DNA of 64,000 nucleotides from Moraxella nasibovis (GTDB taxonomy: Bacteria > Pseudomonadota > Gammaproteobacteria > Pseudomonadales > Moraxellaceae). This document shows, in pieces, positions 28,366-52,600 of this stretch; within the stretch, counting starts at the first letter, position 1; the number at the start of each line of letters is the position of its first letter. Position numbers and translations under genes: made by a program. Location: assembly GCF_029581575.1 (NCBI RefSeq), contig NZ_CP089975.1, positions 682,001-746,000 on the forward strand. The letters run 5' to 3'. A model generated the notes under the pieces. The model saw only the letters and a program-made list of their open reading frames with translations. It searched no databases and was not told the DNA's origin.

Positions 28366-29040
28366 TTACACTAACACCCTTTTATGTTCCAACACCACGC
28401 CAATCACTTCAAACGCCTTGGCACGGCTATCAATGGTAGGGTAAAACTCATTTAGGGCGATAAGCTGATGATAGGGCTTGTCGCCATCAAAGCATTCACG
28501 GTATTTTTTAAAGGTGGCTTTGGGGTCATCTGCCACCAGTGCCACAACATAATTGCCCGTTACCGCTACTCTATTTCTGCCTATCAATATCAAATCGCCC
28601 TGGTTAAAATCAGGGGTCATGCTATCGCCCTTGACCCTAAGCCAATAATCCCCGTCCTTGTGGTGAGCAGGTTCGTACTCATCAAACACATCATCGCCAA
28701 TCTCGGTAAAATGTCCTGCCTGCACTTCATTGATGATGGGCAACATCTTAACAGGATTGGCATGCTCCACGCCATTTTCCCGACCTTGTATCTCATTCAT
28801 TTTTTGGCGTAAATCATCAATGCTTGGCTTGGTGGACATCTCGCCTTGACCTGTGGCGAGCCAATCAGCATTAACACCAAATAATCTTGCCAGTTCAATC
28901 ATTTTTGTGGTGGTTTTACTCTTTCCACTTTCAAGCTGACTATATGCTGATTGAGAAAGACCATCAATACGCTCAGCTACTTCTGCTTGGCTGAATTTCT
29001 TGGCTTTGCGTGCCGATTTCAATCTGTCTGACAAGCTCAT
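28366..29040 (-). CDS. cI: CI-type repressor with LexA-like autoprotease
   Basis: 224 residues. An Xre helix-turn-helix at ~18-40 (FSQAEVAERIDGLSQSAYSQLESGK) precedes an S24 peptidase domain. The Ala-Gly cleavage site is at 108-109 (EVQAGHF), the catalytic Ser140 in GDSM, and the catalytic Lys178 in ATFKK. RecA-stimulated self-cleavage, hence SOS induction, is expected. Transcribed leftward from P_RM and opposite to cro, it should bind the ATAAG-N4-CTTAT operators. Confidence 0.93.
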   Translation of the reverse strand: MSLSDRLKSARKAKKFSQAEVAERIDGLSQSAYSQLESGKSKTTTKMIELARLFGVNADWLATGQGEMSTKPSIDDLRQKMNEIQGRENGVEHANPVKMLPIINEVQAGHFTEIGDDVFDEYEPAHHKDGDYWLRVKGDSMTPDFNQGDLILIGRNRVAVTGNYVVALVADDPKATFKKYRECFDGDKPYHQLIALNEFYPTIDSRAKAFEVIGVVLEHKRVLV

Positions 29041-46645: not shown

Positions 46646-47068
46646 ATGATTGTTAAAAAACGAGAAAAACAAACCATTGCCCAAACACCGTGCCAATGGG
46701 TGGATTATCGTGACGGTGTCAGTTTTGAGCTGTACGGTATGTCGCATCCGCTGTATGTACAAGCATATATCAAGCTTGGTATTCGTGAAGCGAAAGAAGA
46801 TTTGCTGAATCTTAGTGAAGATGTCAATAGCATCGAGCAGTACGCACTAATCATCGGTCAATATCTGGTCAAAGACTGGGCAGGTATTAAAGATGAAGAT
46901 GGCGAAGACTTGGCGTGCAACGCTGATCATTTTGTTGATTTGCTGACGGCTGAAGATGGCTTGATGGGTTGGATTTTGGATAAATCCCGTGAAATCCAAG
47001 AACAACACGCAAACAGTGTGGTGCAAGCCAAAAAAAAGCCGTCGAAAGGTGGCAATTCGAAAGGCTAG
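46646..47068 (+). CDS. tail assembly chaperone G
   Basis: 140 residues. Acidic helical protein at the lambda G position. It ends with a lysine-rich tail encoded over a run of eight A. The heptamer A AAA AAG (47032-47038) in frame allows a -1 shift into the T-like frame. Confidence 0.85.
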   Translation: MIVKKREKQTIAQTPCQWVDYRDGVSFELYGMSHPLYVQAYIKLGIREAKEDLLNLSEDVNSIEQYALIIGQYLVKDWAGIKDEDGEDLACNADHFVDLLTAEDGLMGWILDKSREIQEQHANSVVQAKKKPSKGGNSKG

Positions 47069-47349
47069 GTCTTACACCTTTTACGCTCTCGGTCATGCAG
47101 TATGTTGGCGTTGATGTACCGCATGAGCCTGAGACCAATATTGTGATTGATAACATTATTCACATTTTTTACCTTGCGTCACGCTCACGGCGATACATTG
47201 GCGGTATGGCTGTATCGCCACTGCCTTTGTCCGTGGCTGATATTAATGATGTGCTTATGGCTCATCACTGCTACACTGACCGTGAGACTTTGGATGCGTG
47301 TGTATTTGCGATAGATGATGCGTGGTTGCAAGAAAATCAAAAGTTGTAG
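46646..47349 (+). CDS. tail assembly chaperone G-T fusion by -1 ribosomal frameshift
   Basis: After the shift at 47032-47038 the frame reads AVERWQFERLGLTPFTLSV, then MQYVGVDVPHEP, and stays open to 47349. The joined product is 234 residues. This is the conserved siphovirus G/GT scheme, in which the fusion wraps the tape measure. The T part has FYLASRSRRYIGGMAVSPLPLSVADIND. Confidence 0.88.
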
Positions 47350-47405
47350 AATGATGATATACAACACAAGGTGTTAGACTGGTACGAATGATACAAGCAT
47401 AATAA

Positions 47406-47443
47406 GCAAAAATCCCCAGACTGTGGCGGTCTAGGGATTTTCT
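47406..47443 (+). terminator. terminator after the chaperone genes
   Basis: AAAATCCCCAGAC / GTCTAGGGATTTT. Preceded by ATAAGCAAAAATCCC, also found at the terminator 49364-49398. Confidence 0.83.
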
Positions 47444-47478
47444 GTATTCAACCCTTAGAGCAGATAAGGATTAAATCA

Positions 47479-47628
47479 TTGGAATATTTTAGCATAGTTG
47501 CAGGCTTGATGAAATACACAATTGAAAAATATGGGCTATGGCAAACAATCATAGCATTTTTATTGTTATTTAGCATACCAATATTTATTTACAAACTAGA
47601 TGTCATCATTATGGCAGTCAAGGCATAA
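47479..47628 (+). CDS. mini-TM protein B (49 residues)
   Basis: TTG start with AAGGA 8 bases before. Begins MEYFSIVAGLMKYTIEKYGL, then one helix FLLLFSIPIFIYKL. Follows a terminator. Relation to the other mini-TM proteins is by position and design; sequence similarity is weaker. Confidence 0.5.
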   Translation: MEYFSIVAGLMKYTIEKYGLWQTIIAFLLLFSIPIFIYKLDVIIMAVKA

Positions 47629-47635
47629 AAATAGC

Positions 47636-47664
47636 TTAACAAATTAGCAAAAATGTTGTAAAAT
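47636..47664 (+). promoter_or_regulatory. moron promoter for the lipoprotein
   Basis: TTAACA (47636-47641), 17 bases, TAAAAT (47659-47664). The inverted repeat AATAACTCC (47665-47673) / GGAGTTATT (47686-47694) follows; the second arm holds the SD of the gene. Confidence 0.65.
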
Positions 47665-47697
47665 AATAACTCCCCATAGTTAAACGGAGTTATTACC

Positions 47698-48222
47698 ATG
47701 AAAAAACTTTTAATTGCAGGTGTATTCGGTCTATCATTGGTTGGCTGTGCAACCACAAGTGGCACAGTAAGCGAGCCAATGAACACCTATCAGCGCATTG
47801 TTGATGTGCCCAATGTCAAGCAAGATATGGTTTATGAGGGTTCAAGACAGTGGGTGGCAAAAAACTTTAAATCTGCCAACTCTGTAATTCAATACCAAGA
47901 CAAAGAAACTGGTAGTGTGATTGGTAAAGGTAACATGAGTTACCCTTGCTCATTCTTAAGATGTTCAGGTGGTACAAGCCCAGTCTTGCAATTTACTTTC
48001 CAAGTGGATTCAAAGGATAACAGAGCTCGTGTTTCATTCTCTGATTTAACCATTCATACGCCATCAGCTGTATCACCAATTACTGGTATACGTTCGCCAG
48101 AGATGAATGAAAAAGTTATCAAAGAAAATGACAAGACGCAAACAAAAGCAATTTTGGATAAAGTGATTGATGACTTGGCTCAAGATATCGCATCACCAAG
48201 CGTTGGTTCAAAAGATTGGTAA
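47698..48222 (+). CDS. prophage lipoprotein (probable lysogenic conversion gene)
   Basis: 174 residues. Signal peptide with lipobox LSLVGCAT, so an outer or inner membrane lipoprotein. The body (NTYQRIVDVPNVKQDMVYEGSRQWVAKNFKSAN ... FTFQVDSKDNRARVSFSDLTIH) resembles the DUF4468 (TBP-like fold) pattern of lipoproteins. It has its own promoter and terminator inside the late operon, a moron design. It may alter the surface or exclude other phages; that is inference. Confidence 0.8.
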   Translation: MKKLLIAGVFGLSLVGCATTSGTVSEPMNTYQRIVDVPNVKQDMVYEGSRQWVAKNFKSANSVIQYQDKETGSVIGKGNMSYPCSFLRCSGGTSPVLQFTFQVDSKDNRARVSFSDLTIHTPSAVSPITGIRSPEMNEKVIKENDKTQTKAILDKVIDDLAQDIASPSVGSKDW

Positions 48223-48242
48223 ATAATCTTATACAACTAAAC

Positions 48243-48273
48243 AAAAACCCCACTTTACATAGTGGGGTTTTTA
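48243..48273 (+). terminator. terminator of the lipoprotein moron
   Basis: AAAAACCCCACT / AGTGGGGTTTTT with T run. Its loop also holds the -35 of the c4 promoter. Confidence 0.86.
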
Positions 48274-48282
48274 TTGTATGAT
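48254..48282 (+). promoter_or_regulatory. c4/ant operon promoter
   Basis: TTTACA (48254-48259), 17 bases, TATGAT (48277-48282). Confidence 0.6.
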
Positions 48283-48288
48283 ACACAT

Positions 48289-48375
48289 AGAGCCTCGAAA
48301 ACTCGTTGAAAGCGTTACCCACAAGCGACATCTGTGGTATTTTTATGTCTAAATCTAGACAATCTCTTTGCATAG
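48289..48375 (+). ncRNA. c4: C4-type antisense RNA
   Basis: Two segments are complementary to the downstream operon leader. CTCGAAA (48294-48300) plus TTGAAAG (48306-48312) pair with CTTTCAG...TTTCGAG (48463-48479); GTTACCC (48314-48320) pairs perfectly with GGGTAAC (48498-48504). Hairpins CCACA/TGTGG and GTCTA/TAGAC follow. This is the a'/b'-a/b arrangement of phage P1 c4 RNA, which silences the antirepressor. The 3' end is approximate. Confidence 0.75.
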
Positions 48376-48503
48376 CTCCTAAAAAGTTAATCCGAAATCT
48401 TTTGCGATTATGCCGAGAGGGTGGCGGTCATACAATACCGAAAGGAAAAGCCGCCCGCCGTACTTTCAGCGGTTTCGAGCCTCTTGGCACCCTATTTGGG
48501 TAA
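48345..48503 (+). CDS. Icd/Ash-like small ORF, target of C4 RNA
   Basis: 52 residues, basic: starts MSKSRQSLCIAPKKLIRNLL and ends RRTFSGFEPLGTLFG. The last codons and the stop are the C4 target. In P1 an icd frame (cell division inhibitor) lies at this place. A longer start at 48306 is possible. The frame may be mainly a leader. Confidence 0.4.
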   Translation: MSKSRQSLCIAPKKLIRNLLRLCREGGGHTIPKGKAARRTFSGFEPLGTLFG

Positions 48504-48532
48504 CTTTAATCGAAAAAATTGAAAGGTGTCTT

Positions 48533-49282
48533 ATGACAAATCAAATCCAAACCGTGAATTTTCACAACCAATCCCTAATCACTCTACAAAAAGACAATGT
48601 CGCTTATGTGGCAATGAAGCCCATTTGCGAAAATATCGGTCTTGATTGGGAGGCTCAACGCCAACGCATTAGCCGTGATGAAGTGCTAAATTCAGTTGCC
48701 TGTATGATAAAGGCAACTGGCACAGACAACAAAATTTACAAAATGCTATGCCTACCAATCCACTACTTAAACGGTTGGCTATTCGGTGTAGATACAAACC
48801 GTGTCAAAGCGGAAATCAAAGAAACGCTGATTACTTACAAAAAAGAATGCTATCAAGCGTTATTTGATTATTGGAAGAATGGCGTGGCGGTCAACCCACG
48901 AGCAACCAAAGACGAAAGAAAGCCACTGGTGCAAGCGGTAAATATGCTCGTTGCCGAGACAGGGGCGATTTATAGCAATGTGTGGAAAATGATACACCAA
49001 CGCTTTGATGTGGGCTGTGTCGATGAGCTGACAGGTGAGCAGGTACATCAAGCGGTGGAGTATGTGCATAAACTCATGTTGCAGGCAGGAAGCAAGGTCA
49101 ATGCCCCCTTTGTCCAAAACATCATCGCTGACACCGCTCATCAAAACCGCATGGCAAAAGATGAACTGGGGCAGATGATGGCACACTTTGGCAAAGCCTT
49201 AGACCATATCGCCGAACTCCAAAACCGTCTAAAACGCCAAGAAGTGCTGATAGACGGTGCAAAAAGACAGTTGGTTGCTTGA
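48533..49282 (+). CDS. P22_AR_N-type antirepressor (Ant)
   Basis: 249 residues. The N-terminal ~115 residues are the antirepressor domain (IQTVNFHNQSLITLQKDNVAYVAMKPICENIGLDW, LPIHYLNGWLFGVD). The C-terminal half is helical and its end (AKDELGQMMAHFGKALDHIAELQNRLKRQEV) is a coiled coil. It would block the CI repressor and promote induction. SD AAGGTG before the ATG. The frame extends 123 bases upstream but starts inside the Icd-like region. Confidence 0.83.
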   Translation: MTNQIQTVNFHNQSLITLQKDNVAYVAMKPICENIGLDWEAQRQRISRDEVLNSVACMIKATGTDNKIYKMLCLPIHYLNGWLFGVDTNRVKAEIKETLITYKKECYQALFDYWKNGVAVNPRATKDERKPLVQAVNMLVAETGAIYSNVWKMIHQRFDVGCVDELTGEQVHQAVEYVHKLMLQAGSKVNAPFVQNIIADTAHQNRMAKDELGQMMAHFGKALDHIAELQNRLKRQEVLIDGAKRQLVA

Positions 49283-49363
49283 TACTTGTTAAAAAAAACA
49301 CCCTGCTCATCGGATGGTGGGCGGGGTATTGGTGTTTGTGAAAAATGACAAGATAAAATAAGC

Positions 49364-49398
49364 AAAAATCCCAAAGATTGCCGTCTTTGGGATTTTTA
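49364..49398 (+). terminator. terminator after ant
   Basis: AAAAATCCCAAAGA / TCTTTGGGATTTTT with T run. Confidence 0.88.
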
Positions 49399-49426
49399 TT
49401 ACAACCCATTATAGGGGTTAAAGTAA

Positions 49427-49570
49427 ATGGGATATGGCGATTTTATCAAATTTTTAACCTTTTGTCTAAAGGTATTTAATGATATGAAAACTTGCAGATT
49501 TTGGGCGATTTGGTTTTTAGGATTGTTATTGTGCTTGTCTGTATTTTTTACAGCAATTAAATGGTGGTAA
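49427..49570 (+). CDS. mini-TM protein C (47 residues)
   Basis: Starts MGYGDFIKFLTFCLKVFNDM, one helix FLGLLLCLSVFFTAIKWW at the end. The last five residues AIKWW are identical to mini-TM A. AGGGG lies upstream. Between two terminators. Confidence 0.55.
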   Translation: MGYGDFIKFLTFCLKVFNDMKTCRFWAIWFLGLLLCLSVFFTAIKWW

Positions 49571-49573
49571 TTT

Positions 49574-49596
49574 CCGTCCGAAAGGGCGGTTTTTTT
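49574..49596 (+). terminator. terminator before the tape measure gene
   Basis: CCGTCC-GAAA-GGGCGG with seven T. Confidence 0.82.
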
Positions 49597-49609
49597 ATGG
49601 GTGAAAATT

Positions 49610-52600
49610 ATGTCAGCAGTAGAACGCAGAGTTGAGATTGTCGTAGGTGCAGCAAGTGCTGAACAACGCATCAAAGCACTAGTAAAGCAGTTTGCAAGCC
49701 TAAAAGGTGCGTCAAACAATGCCAGTGATGCCATTGACGATTTGGCGAAATCTGCAACCAATCTTGGCACATCCATTGATAAGAACGGTCGTTTGCGTGA
49801 TGCCAATGGTCGATTTGTCAAAATGGGTCAAGATGCCAAGCAAGCAAGCCAAGGCGTGGATAAATTGGCACAATCCACACGCAAACTGGGTGATAGTGCT
49901 GATTACACAAATAAGCTTCTTGGCGGTCTAAAAGGCATGATGGCAGGCTATTTTAGCCTTGCAGGGCTTGGCAGTGTGTTAAAAACAGCTGATGCGATGC
50001 AGACGCAGAACGCCCAAATTAAGCAAGTTACTGAATCAACTGAGCAATACATCGCTGTCAAAAAACAGCTGTTTCAAATCGCTCAAAGTACACACCAAGA
50101 CATTGAAGCAACAACAACAGCTTACACCAATAACGCTCGCTCACTTCAACATCTGGGCAAAAACCAAGCTGAAATCCTAAAATTTACAGAATCAGTGTCA
50201 CTGGCGATGGCAGTGGGTGGTAAATCAGCCCAAGAGCAAGCATCGGCATTGGTGCAGCTAGGTCAAGCGATGCAATCGGGCGTATTGCAGGGTGATGAAT
50301 TTCGCTCAATCGCCGAAAATGCACCCATTCTACTAGACTTGGTGGCACAATCCCTGAACAAAACCCGTGCAGAAGTTAAAGAGCTTGCCAGTGATGGCAA
50401 AATCAGTGCTGAAGTCATCTATAACGCCATGGCAGGAGCATCAGAAGAGCTAAAAGCCAAATATGCTGCTATGCCTGTGACGATGAATCAAGCCTTGACT
50501 ACGGTGCAAAACCAGTACAAACGCTTGGTTGATGAGTTTATGAATGGCACGGGCGGACTGAGCGAAAAAATCGCCAGTGCTATCTTGTGGGTCAATGAGC
50601 ATTTTAATTCAATCATTCCTACATTGGCAGGGCTGACCGCTATTTATGGTAGCTATCTGGTGATGAATTCAGCGTTTGTGGCTTCTATTCCTGCCAAAGT
50701 AGCAGGATTGGCGGCTAGTACGACAGCGTTTTATCAAGAGTCTGTGGCGATGAACGCCAATGCAGCTGCTAAGGCTCGTGCGGTGATGGCAAATGTCACA
50801 CTGACTAATGCGGCATCAGCTATGGCAATCGGTGTATCTCGTGCAGGTATTGCAGTGATGAATGCGGCTAGATTTATTGACCGAAAAACTGCATCTGTGA
50901 TGAATGCAAGCCGTTCACTAGCCACTTACTCAGCCAATCTGGTGCGAACAAATGGCGTACTGGGTGCGACACGACTAGCAGTAGCAGGCACGACAACAGC
51001 ACTGGTTGCACAAGCCAGAGCTGTTGCGACATCTAATGCTGCAAAAGTGGCACTGACGGCAACGACACGCACCATGGCAGGCGTGATGACTACGGCAGGG
51101 CGGGCAATCGCTTCTGTGGGTGCTATCATCAAAGCGCATCCGATTATGATTTTGGCAGGCATCATCACGACGGTTATTACAGCCACGATGGGGCTAGAAG
51201 AAGCGATGAAAAGCTTTGGCGACGCAGTGACTATTGTGGGATATGGCATTCAAGATTTTGTCAAATGGTCGGTAGATGGCTTTACTAACAAAATGGGTAA
51301 AGCGATTGACTGGATGTCAAAATTTTTCAGCAAATCATCACAGGACGGCTCAAACAAAGCATCAGCAGCGTTTTTTGGGTTTTTTAAGACTCAAGAGGGT
51401 GGATTTGTAGGCTTATTGCGTGTCGTTGCTCGTTCATTTGATGGTATCACAACAGTTGCTAAGGCTGCCATGTTGTATGCAGGGTCGCAGGTAGAGGCAA
51501 TCGGTGCAAGGTTTAAAAACGCCTACAACGCCATGGTACCTGAGTTTTTGGGCGGTGGTGGACCTGAGATTGCCGTCAACGCAATCAGTTTTGGCGATGC
51601 AATGGCACAATCTCGCTCAAACTATTTTGAAGGTTTGATGAATGGTTATGTCTCAAGATTGTCAGTTGCCAAAGAAGAAAAGGCAGCCGCTGCTAATATT
51701 GGTACACTAGGCTCAGTCGCTGGTACTGCTGCCACAAACCTAGGTAAGCTAGGCGAAGAGACGAAAAAGGCTAAGAAAGGTAGTAGTGATAAGTTAAACC
51801 CAAGCTTAAGCTCGCAAACGGGGCGTATGCACATGGTATTCACTGCCTTTAAAAACGCAGGGTTTAGTGATGAGCAGGCACGCCAATTGACCGCACAAGT
51901 TGGTCGGGAAAACGAGTACAATTCAAAATACTTGTTTGGCACTCATACTGATGCTAATAATGGCTTGACCAATATTGGTATGATTAGCTGGCAGGGTGGT
52001 CGTGGCACAAAACTACGACAAGAAATGCAACAGCAAGGCTTGATTAAAAATGGCAAAATGGTTCAAAGCCAAGAAGCGTTAGACTATCAGGCTAAATATC
52101 TTGCTAGAGAAATGGCAAATGAAAGAATCTATGAGCGCACGCGTCGTGACTTCATGCAAAATCCAAACCCAACTTATGAAAAGGGTATGGGTGCACTGAA
52201 TGATAATTTCATTCGGTGGGATTCAGCAGGTAAAAAAATTAATGCTAGACCACATCATGAGAAACAACGCCGTTTTTATGATCAAATCAGCAATAGCACT
52301 AAAAATATGGTGCAAGAGGTTCAGGAGGATGTAAAAACCCAAGAGGAGCTACTAAAAGCCCAACAGGAATTAATCCTAAAATATTCTGACCATACCACTC
52401 GTCAATTAGCAGCATTGGCGGCAGAGAAAAAAGCTGTCAATGATGCGTTTGGGGAAAACAGCGAGGATGGTCGCAAGCTCAATGAGATTATTGAAACCAG
52501 ATACAGACTGGCTGGCGAGCTTAGACAGCGTGAACAGTTGCTTGAAATGCAAGGCTATCAGATGTCTTCGCAAGACCGTATGGCATTAGAGCATGAAATC

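Follow-up and report, generated by a model that had tools for sequence, protein, structure and literature searches.

Related antisense switches and the RNA of this locus

The C4 RNA of phage P1 is linked to antirepressor genes (PMC8198154, excerpt), and our account of P1 C4, icd and RNase P is based on this source and on PMC5320573, each in part. In Acinetobacter, C4-like RNAs processed from longer transcripts are reported to be abundant (PMC5320573, excerpt). The isrK-orf45-anrP operon of Salmonella Gifsy-1 is bench-tested: it gives a short leader RNA with a Rho-independent terminator and a processed RNA of ~80 nt (STnc1160), its ORF varies in protein sequence, and the leader pairs with the 3' end of this ORF; its authors liken the operon to seqA, CI and seqC of P4 (PMC4825925, in part). 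The family sRNA-Xcc1 (RF02221) figures in the literature as an sRNA of bacteria, or one linked to virulence, whose targets were predicted genome-wide (excerpts of PMC2996969 and PMC12189769). In the portions of text covered by a literature search, sRNA-Xcc1 was never named with "antirepressor" or "anti-repressor"; in one paper it does occur with "prophage" and "antisense".

The window analysed here is a stretch of 64,000 nt from Moraxella nasibovis; features are on its forward strand unless stated otherwise. At 48411-48496 it contains an RNA assigned to RF02221 by covariance match, alignment and folding. The match (48412-48496) covers the full length of the model (1-87) with 67.9 bits for a gathering cutoff of 53 (E 3.6e-10), i.e. 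the RNA is a member of sRNA-Xcc1 by score. The preliminary description of the locus had proposed a search with the C4 covariance model. This model (RF01695) gave no match in 48200-48800 (E up to 1) and none across the own genome; RF02221 matched instead. The isrK (RF01394) and c4-a1b1 (RF03163) models gave no match in 48200-48800 either (E up to 1). The Rfam clan CL00128 contains C4 and c4-a1b1; no clan is displayed for RF02221.

The body of the RNA (48411-48489, followed by a short tail) folds into an outer stem (48411-48420 with 48480-48489) that encloses two hairpins, P2 and P3. The loop of P3 (48462-48468) carries the segment b' (CTTTCA, 48463-48468) and the junction carries a' (48473-48479). 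Folded alone, the RNA has an MFE of -31.5 kcal/mol (z -2.46). The C4 RNA of P1 and P7 is built alike, with an outer stem and two hairpins, b' in the loop of P3, and a' in the junction that precedes the 3' strand of the outer stem. Its 5' flank likewise resembles TTAT or CTAT, and CACC occurs close to its 3' end. It differs in P2, which here includes a AUACAAUACC...GGGAAUA element. Across the RF02221 loci TTAT lies immediately 5' of the model match in 37/81 and CTAT in 9/81; these flanks are suggestive of processing from a longer transcript by RNase P. In C4-type RNAs, a' and b' find complementary sites both upstream and downstream of the RNA, and this is what the inverted repeats of the window display. 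The RNA is RF02221 by score, not C4 by model, and, judged from anatomy and co-variation, C4-like in its working. We read the module, with a probability of about 0.86, as a C4-type antisense-RNA switch that would silence an antirepressor.

Pairing of the RNA with its two neighbouring targets

The upstream target (48294-48312) comprises a1 (CTCGAAA, 48294-48300) and b1 (TTGAAAG, 48306-48312), and was identified by inverted repeats, duplex energy and relatives. Its two segments belong to inverted repeats I3 and I10, whose other arms are 48473-48484 and 48463-48471, respectively. The duplex of a1b1 with the 3' half of the RNA reaches -25.7 kcal/mol, a value matched by 0/1000 shuffled targets. The preliminary description had noticed that CTCGAAA/TTGAAAG pair with segments further downstream. 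This pairing is real, but the partner is the RNA's own 3' half, so the two segments are the upstream site of the RNA.

The downstream target (48510-48526) is formed by a2 (TCGAAA, 48510-48515) and b2 (TTGAAAG, 48519-48525); it was identified by inverted repeat I2, co-variation and the family tests. It is co-linear with the RNA at 48463-48478 (I2), and b2 overlaps the Shine-Dalgarno sequence of ant (AAAGG, 48522-48526), whose ATG is at 48533. This site on the ribosome-binding site of ant (a2b2, 48510-48525) had been overlooked at the preliminary stage. The a2b2 duplex reaches -13.6 kcal/mol, with 23/1000 shuffled targets equally good, and among 15994 tiles of 31 nt taken from both strands of the window, 5314 pair no worse. 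Proof by duplex energy in the window locus alone thus failed for a2b2. As the pairing is weak in this single locus, its support is comparative.

Three sets of loci were submitted to permutation tests in which distinct loops were used; the permutations treat loci as unrelated though they are kin. The RF02221 set started from 83 loci (including, for its class-wide scan part, 28 of 40 non-own matches). Removal of 2 duplicates left 81; folding gave no loop in five of these and another had less than 150 nt upstream, which left 75 usable loci with 66 distinct P3 loops, whose pairing was scored downstream over the next 130 nt. The cognate sums were 405 downstream and 408 upstream, versus at most 324 and 350 after re-pairing (0/10,000 in each case). 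The best 12 loci of C4 (RF01695) behave in the same way, with cognate complementarity both downstream (81 versus at most 72) and upstream (73 versus at most 69).

The second set was collected by an RNA motif only. It comprises at least 236 stretches (at least 116 from genomes and at least 120 viral), of which 196 were used. These yielded 179 motif hits with flanking sequence; our stem or hairpin rule excluded 54, and the 125 usable ones have 86 distinct loops. The sums were 479 downstream (at most 387 when permuted) and 522 upstream (at most 426), with 0/10,000 permutations as good at either site. Among the matches listed, an ATG follows a 6-nt b2 within 17 nt in 56/59 loci. In the third set flanking anchors fixed the positions without reference to pairing, and 16 of 17 loci were usable (14 distinct loops). 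At b2 94/98 bases are complementary (permuted mean 50.3, maximum 76; 0/20,000), b2 being allowed to slide by one base, as in the permutations. At b1 the count is 78/98 (permuted mean 41.1, maximum 63; 0/20,000), four visibly anchor-shifted rows (L031, L036, L045 and L046) being retained. Pairing at both targets is cognate across loci. This family-wide evidence concerns b', the P3 loop; the complementarity of a' is read from the inverted repeats of the window.

The same is seen on a small scale in three near-identical modules: the window, phage Mcat14 (87% identity over 235 nt) and a second copy in the own genome (84% over 252 nt; loop GCTTACA). In the window b1, b' and b2 are TTGAAAG, CTTTCA and TTGAAAG; in both others they are TGTAAG, CTTACA and TGTAAG, i.e. 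the changes are matched at all three sites. Among the five copies of the own genome, two of which are above the RF02221 cutoff, the cognate duplex ranks strictly first in 3, ties for first in 1 and is outranked in 1.

Under a strict loop rule, and among the loci listed, a contiguous 6-nt b2 is present in 112/201 loci and absent in 89/201. Assigning loops by minimum-energy folding is crude, and the missing b2 apparently correspond in part to mis-assigned loops and in part to a real absence. Among the motif matches listed, grouped by record title, the Xanthomonadales have b1 in 12/17 loci and b2 in 1/17, while the other named genomes have b2 in 20/37 and b1 in 18/37. The Xanthomonadales thus keep b1 but not b2, and the RF02221 family is not uniform. 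Several of their loci (L106, L120, L123, L129, L139, L144, L148 and others) have a b1 complementarity of 7-8 nt and no b2. Many b2-less Xanthomonadales loci share a start context resembling CACTTC.TGGAAT..GGAGG before the next gene.

The gene behind a2b2 in the window, ant (48533-49282), encodes a P22-type antirepressor of 249 aa. It matches P22_AR_N (E 8e-40, 136.1 bits for a cutoff of 30.7) and, in PHROGs, phrog_524, anti-repressor Ant (E 8.4e-57). The longest in-frame ORF (48410-49282) begins inside the RNA region, so automatic annotation could misplace the start of ant; the true start is likely 48533. The proposal of a C4-style antisense RNA sharing its transcript with an antirepressor is supported by the RF02221 match, the paired sites and the P22_AR_N domain downstream.

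In 97/112 of the loci listed that have a 6-nt b2, a rightly placed ORF of 40 codons or more is present, its start codon lying 7-12 nt past b2 in 78 of these 97; a Shine-Dalgarno-like sequence is found at b2 in 89/112 (a raw count without control). A Pfam search on 95 distinct products, in which one protein may fall under two domains, gave Bro-N 15, KilA-N 13, P22_AR_N 9, Phage_pRha 9, AntA 6, ORF6N 6 and SymE 3, and phrog_245 (anti-repressor Ant) was matched by 36 of the downstream products. The remaining products are unrecognised or of minor classes. The recognised domains are mainly of the antirepressor type. SymE-toxin-like genes lie behind 3/95 of such RNAs, so genes of other kinds may be under the guard of the address system too.

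These results bear on the proposal made for sRNA-Xcc1 homologues, that the RNA is a general sRNA acting on host genes, ant being nearby by accident. RF02221 was indeed cloned first from Xanthomonas, as an sRNA for which many targets were predicted (PMC2996969, excerpt). But adjoining cognate targets on both sides, in separate sets of loci, and antirepressor-type genes downstream make this explanation scarcely credible.

The leader, its hairpins and the small reading frame

Along the module come the promoter-like hexamers, a1, b1, a hairpin with a U-run (to 48344), an ATG at 48345, the RNA, a2b2 and ant. The elements of the preliminary description (promoter-like hexamers, CTCGAAA/TTGAAAG, GTTACCC and partners, small ORF, ant) were all found again at their positions. 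The promoter-like sequence (48254-48282) reads TTTACA, 17 nt, TATGAT, and was retained for its consensus match and its likeness in Mcat14 and in locus L027. The bare consensus is at chance level, with 7 matches in 47000-49700 versus 7.0 expected. In these two relatives the -35 hexamer TTTACA is unchanged and the -10 hexamer is TATAGT and TATATT, respectively. The -10 region (48272-48281) is also perfectly complementary, over ten bases, to the AUACAAUA element of the RNA (48428-48437; I4). A terminator-like hairpin ahead of the module (48240-48275, no strand assigned) was recognised as an inverted repeat (I1, 15-nt arms, 93%) and by direct reading, and is absent from the list of the terminator scan; the -35 hexamer falls in and beside its loop. 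With its T-run, this hairpin might work against read-through driven by Q.

Immediately 3' of b1, the leader (48313-48344) contains the hairpin CCACA/TGTGG (48319-48323 with 48333-48337) followed by TATTTTT, a terminator-like element identified by folding and in relatives. By energy the hairpin of the window is weak (z -0.9; 35/200 shuffles as good). Among the loci listed, 134 have a 6-nt b1, and a U-run is found 12-62 nt further in 107 of them; a hairpin of at least 4 bp abuts the U-run in 81/92 distinct leaders (shuffled mean 20.1, maximum 30). CGG after b1 is accompanied, at the loop of the hairpin, by CCG in 70 of these 81 leaders (shuffled mean 23.1, maximum 33). The leader of the window is outside these 70; it has instead CGTT/AGCG (by eye, with one G-U), a possible pseudoknot. 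A nested alternative hairpin of at least 4 bp was seen in 1/81 only, and was dropped for the 3-bp CGG/CCG pseudoknot partner. From these sequence comparisons, the element has the appearance of a terminator that includes a small pseudoknot, and it resembles the leaders of Gifsy-1 IsrK and P4 seqA.

The weak leader hairpin and a promoter match not above chance could be taken for a decayed or chance structure, silent in this prophage. The RNA, both targets and ant are nevertheless intact and the changes are matched with Mcat14, and we consider decay or chance very improbable.

This leader also raises the possibility of an activation like that by IsrK, in which a short terminated leader would act in trans, free the message and turn ant on. 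The isrK-orf45-anrP operon has in common with the window a leader ending at a terminator (here a terminator-like element), an overlapping variable ORF, an RNA of ~80 nt, an antirepressor gene and pairing between the leader and the 3' end of the ORF (PMC4825925, excerpt). The frequency of the hairpin and U-run in relatives (the 81/92 above, among loci listed) speaks for such an activation, as does the fold of the full 260-nt leader, where a1b1 is paired with the RNA in cis, recalling "structure A" of isrK-orf45 (PMC4825925, in part). In addition, isrK matches were found just upstream of the C4 RNA in 2/5 C4 loci (L088, 53.5 bits for a cutoff of 50; L090, 37.5 bits, below it). Matches of c4-a1b1 were also found there in 2/5 loci; of the isrK and c4-a1b1 matches all but one are below cutoff. 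On the other hand, b2 lies on the Shine-Dalgarno sequence of ant, which is a blocking position. IsrK activates anrP through translation of orf45 (same source, in part); in the loci studied here the corresponding frame shows no conservation. The RNA belongs to another Rfam family, and the isrK model, which is without match in 48200-48800, gave none in 16 RF02221 loci (E up to 0.1), nor did c4-a1b1. The common plan of these systems therefore rests on anatomy and not on a shared leader model. Activation of this kind, which could coexist with silencing, seems to us unlikely, although it is the most serious of the rivals.

The small ORF (48345-48503, 52 codons) is defined by its reading frame, overlaps the RNA and ends 30 bases before the ATG of ant (48533). 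Such an ORF ahead of ant, like icd in P1, had led to the label P1-type c4-icd-ant, i.e. to a true operon of this type with a real cell-division inhibitor. Its 52-aa product gave no match in Pfam, NCBIfam or PHROGs, the Icd and Ash families included, and a 65-aa form starting at a TTG gave one weak PHROGs match (E 0.086). In Mcat14 the equivalent frame has a stop after 10 codons, and in the second own-genome copy it ends after 22. More generally, 81 loci were inspected for frames from U-run starts, and 28 have no such start by our own rule; in the 53 other leaders the frame ends before the RNA in 26, inside it in 12 and runs through it in 15. Given the absence of a family match and the lack of conservation we reject icd, and the ORF is probably a leader frame. 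As the RNA is moreover RF02221 and not RF01695 (E up to 1 for the C4 model), the label is not supported, and a P1-type operon has very little likelihood. The locus differs from that of C4 in that there is no icd gene and b2 is at ant itself.

The preliminary description had also included GTTACCC/GGGTAAC in the recognition. An exact 8-nt complementarity is present, between GTTACCCA (48314-48321) and TGGGTAAC (48497-48504; I11). The upstream GTTACCC reads GTTATCC in Mcat14 and L027, where a G-U pair is still possible. A local hairpin at the 3' end of the RNA, ACCC-TATTT-GGGT (48489-48501, by folding), is a rival of this pairing; its 4 bp have a z of -1.95, with 12/200 shuffles as good. At this place 89/206 of the loci listed have a local hairpin of 5 bp or more (shuffled mean 20.8, maximum 30), a length of which the 4-bp hairpin of the window falls short. 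Thus the complement stands, but its role as a third recognition segment is doubtful.

Setting, distribution and meaning of the module

The module is flanked by the genes of a tail assembly chaperone and a tape measure protein, as the preliminary description had it when placing the module in the tail operon; small genes and a lipoprotein-like gene also lie between them. The latter (DUF4468, phrog_4002; 47698-48222), between the tail chaperone and the module, may be another cassette that occupies this place. The terminator scan found a terminator-like hairpin 3' of ant (49300-49327), and a CI-like repressor (phrog_4) is encoded at 28366-29040 on the minus strand. In the preliminary description the switch was supposed to be able to overrule CI, and Q-driven read-through to produce it as well; both are conjectures.

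RF02221 matches (E up to 0.001, own genome included) were found in 26/145 related genomes, 17 above cutoff, and in 26/369 genomes of the class, 12 above cutoff; neither scan gave a match in 14 control genomes. Near relatives of the 260-nt module were found in 4/299 genomes of the family, own included, and in one phage record. Named phages with the RNA are Pasteurella phage Pmp3 (78.3 bits), 1152AP2 (62.8) and Mcat14 (59.2); it lies upstream of annotated ant genes in the first two and of a Bro-N gene in Mcat14. Four other RF02221-like modules of the own genome, at 1074124, 1479493, 1496374 and 1499771 (67.1, 33.9, 43.3 and 39.3 bits, the first alone above cutoff), precede KilA-N or Bro-N genes and carry different addresses. 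RF02221 and C4 RNAs also occur side by side, ~280-580 nt apart (G013 C1 845122/845704 and 832247/831966; G009 C3 2406/2123).

In the near-identical trio the gene behind the RNA encodes P22_AR_N in the window, Bro-N in Mcat14 and KilA-N in the second own-genome copy. The Bro-N gene is followed by that of a PhageMin_Tail protein, and the KilA-N gene by the baseplate genes gp25 and J; in Pmp3, two small genes and one for a baseplate spike come after ant. These late genes next to the antirepressor suggest that the module may be a cassette travelling among late genes. The 54 genes scanned after ant in other loci indicate no single insertion context.

In the mechanism that we propose, the own promoter would give a transcript with a1b1 in its leader, then the RF02221 RNA, then a2b2 on the ribosome-binding site of ant, and ant. 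From the example of P1 C4 and RNase P, we expect the RNA to be trimmed out of this transcript; it would then display b' in its P3 loop and a' in its junction. In a lysogen its binding to a2b2 would block translation of ant; the P22-type antirepressor would be absent and the prophage would stay repressed. Pairing at a1b1, directly 5' of the terminator-like hairpin and U-run, may end transcription early, as proposed for P4 and for IsrK of Gifsy-1. Transcription, processing, silencing, termination and immunity are what we infer from this arrangement. It can be likened by description to P4, where the processed CI RNA pairs with sites up- and downstream (seqA and seqC) in its own transcript (PMC4825925, in part); in P4, early termination keeps replication genes off, whereas here b2 overlaps an antirepressor Shine-Dalgarno sequence. 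In P22, the antisense RNA sar also represses translation of a P22-type ant (PMC12197685, excerpt), but it is another RNA, while the RNA described here lies within the leader of the ant transcript itself.

The address would consist of about five variable bases and the two matching AG of the Shine-Dalgarno sequence. Since the address differs between modules, a lysogen would silence only those incoming phages that share it. As a more tentative extension, for which we claim a limited plausibility, RF02221 as a whole could be a hypervariable "address" immunity system of mobile elements; its five free bases would allow about a thousand loop codes, every one tied to a b1 and a b2 of its own. Copies borne by integrons or islands in Xanthomonas and Xylella, where they are described as virulence-linked sRNAs, might then be captured or tandem immunity RNAs, acting in part as an RNA-based defence against phages of the same address, and the b2-less Xanthomonadales loci a second, feedback-only class. 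In Xylella fastidiosa Temecula1 five RF02221 copies, described as vesicle sRNAs, lie 381-386 nt apart at 1,313,466-1,315,082 (PMC12189769, in part); their spacing resembles that of the tandem modules of genome G005 (L014, L045 and L042).

RF02221 modules of the sort described here are probably C4-type antirepressor switches, a known kind in an apparently unrecognised variant. A function, backed by matched changes at many loci, is thereby proposed for an Rfam family whose targets had been guessed genome-wide, and RF02221 can be set beside C4, c4-a1b1 and isrK as one architecture. Before RF02221 copies are called virulence sRNAs, e.g. the five Xylella copies within 1.6 kb (PMC12189769, excerpt), the presence of adjacent cognate targets should be checked. 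Cross-immunity between prophages would become predictable from a short sequence: modules with the same address would silence each other, those with different addresses would not.
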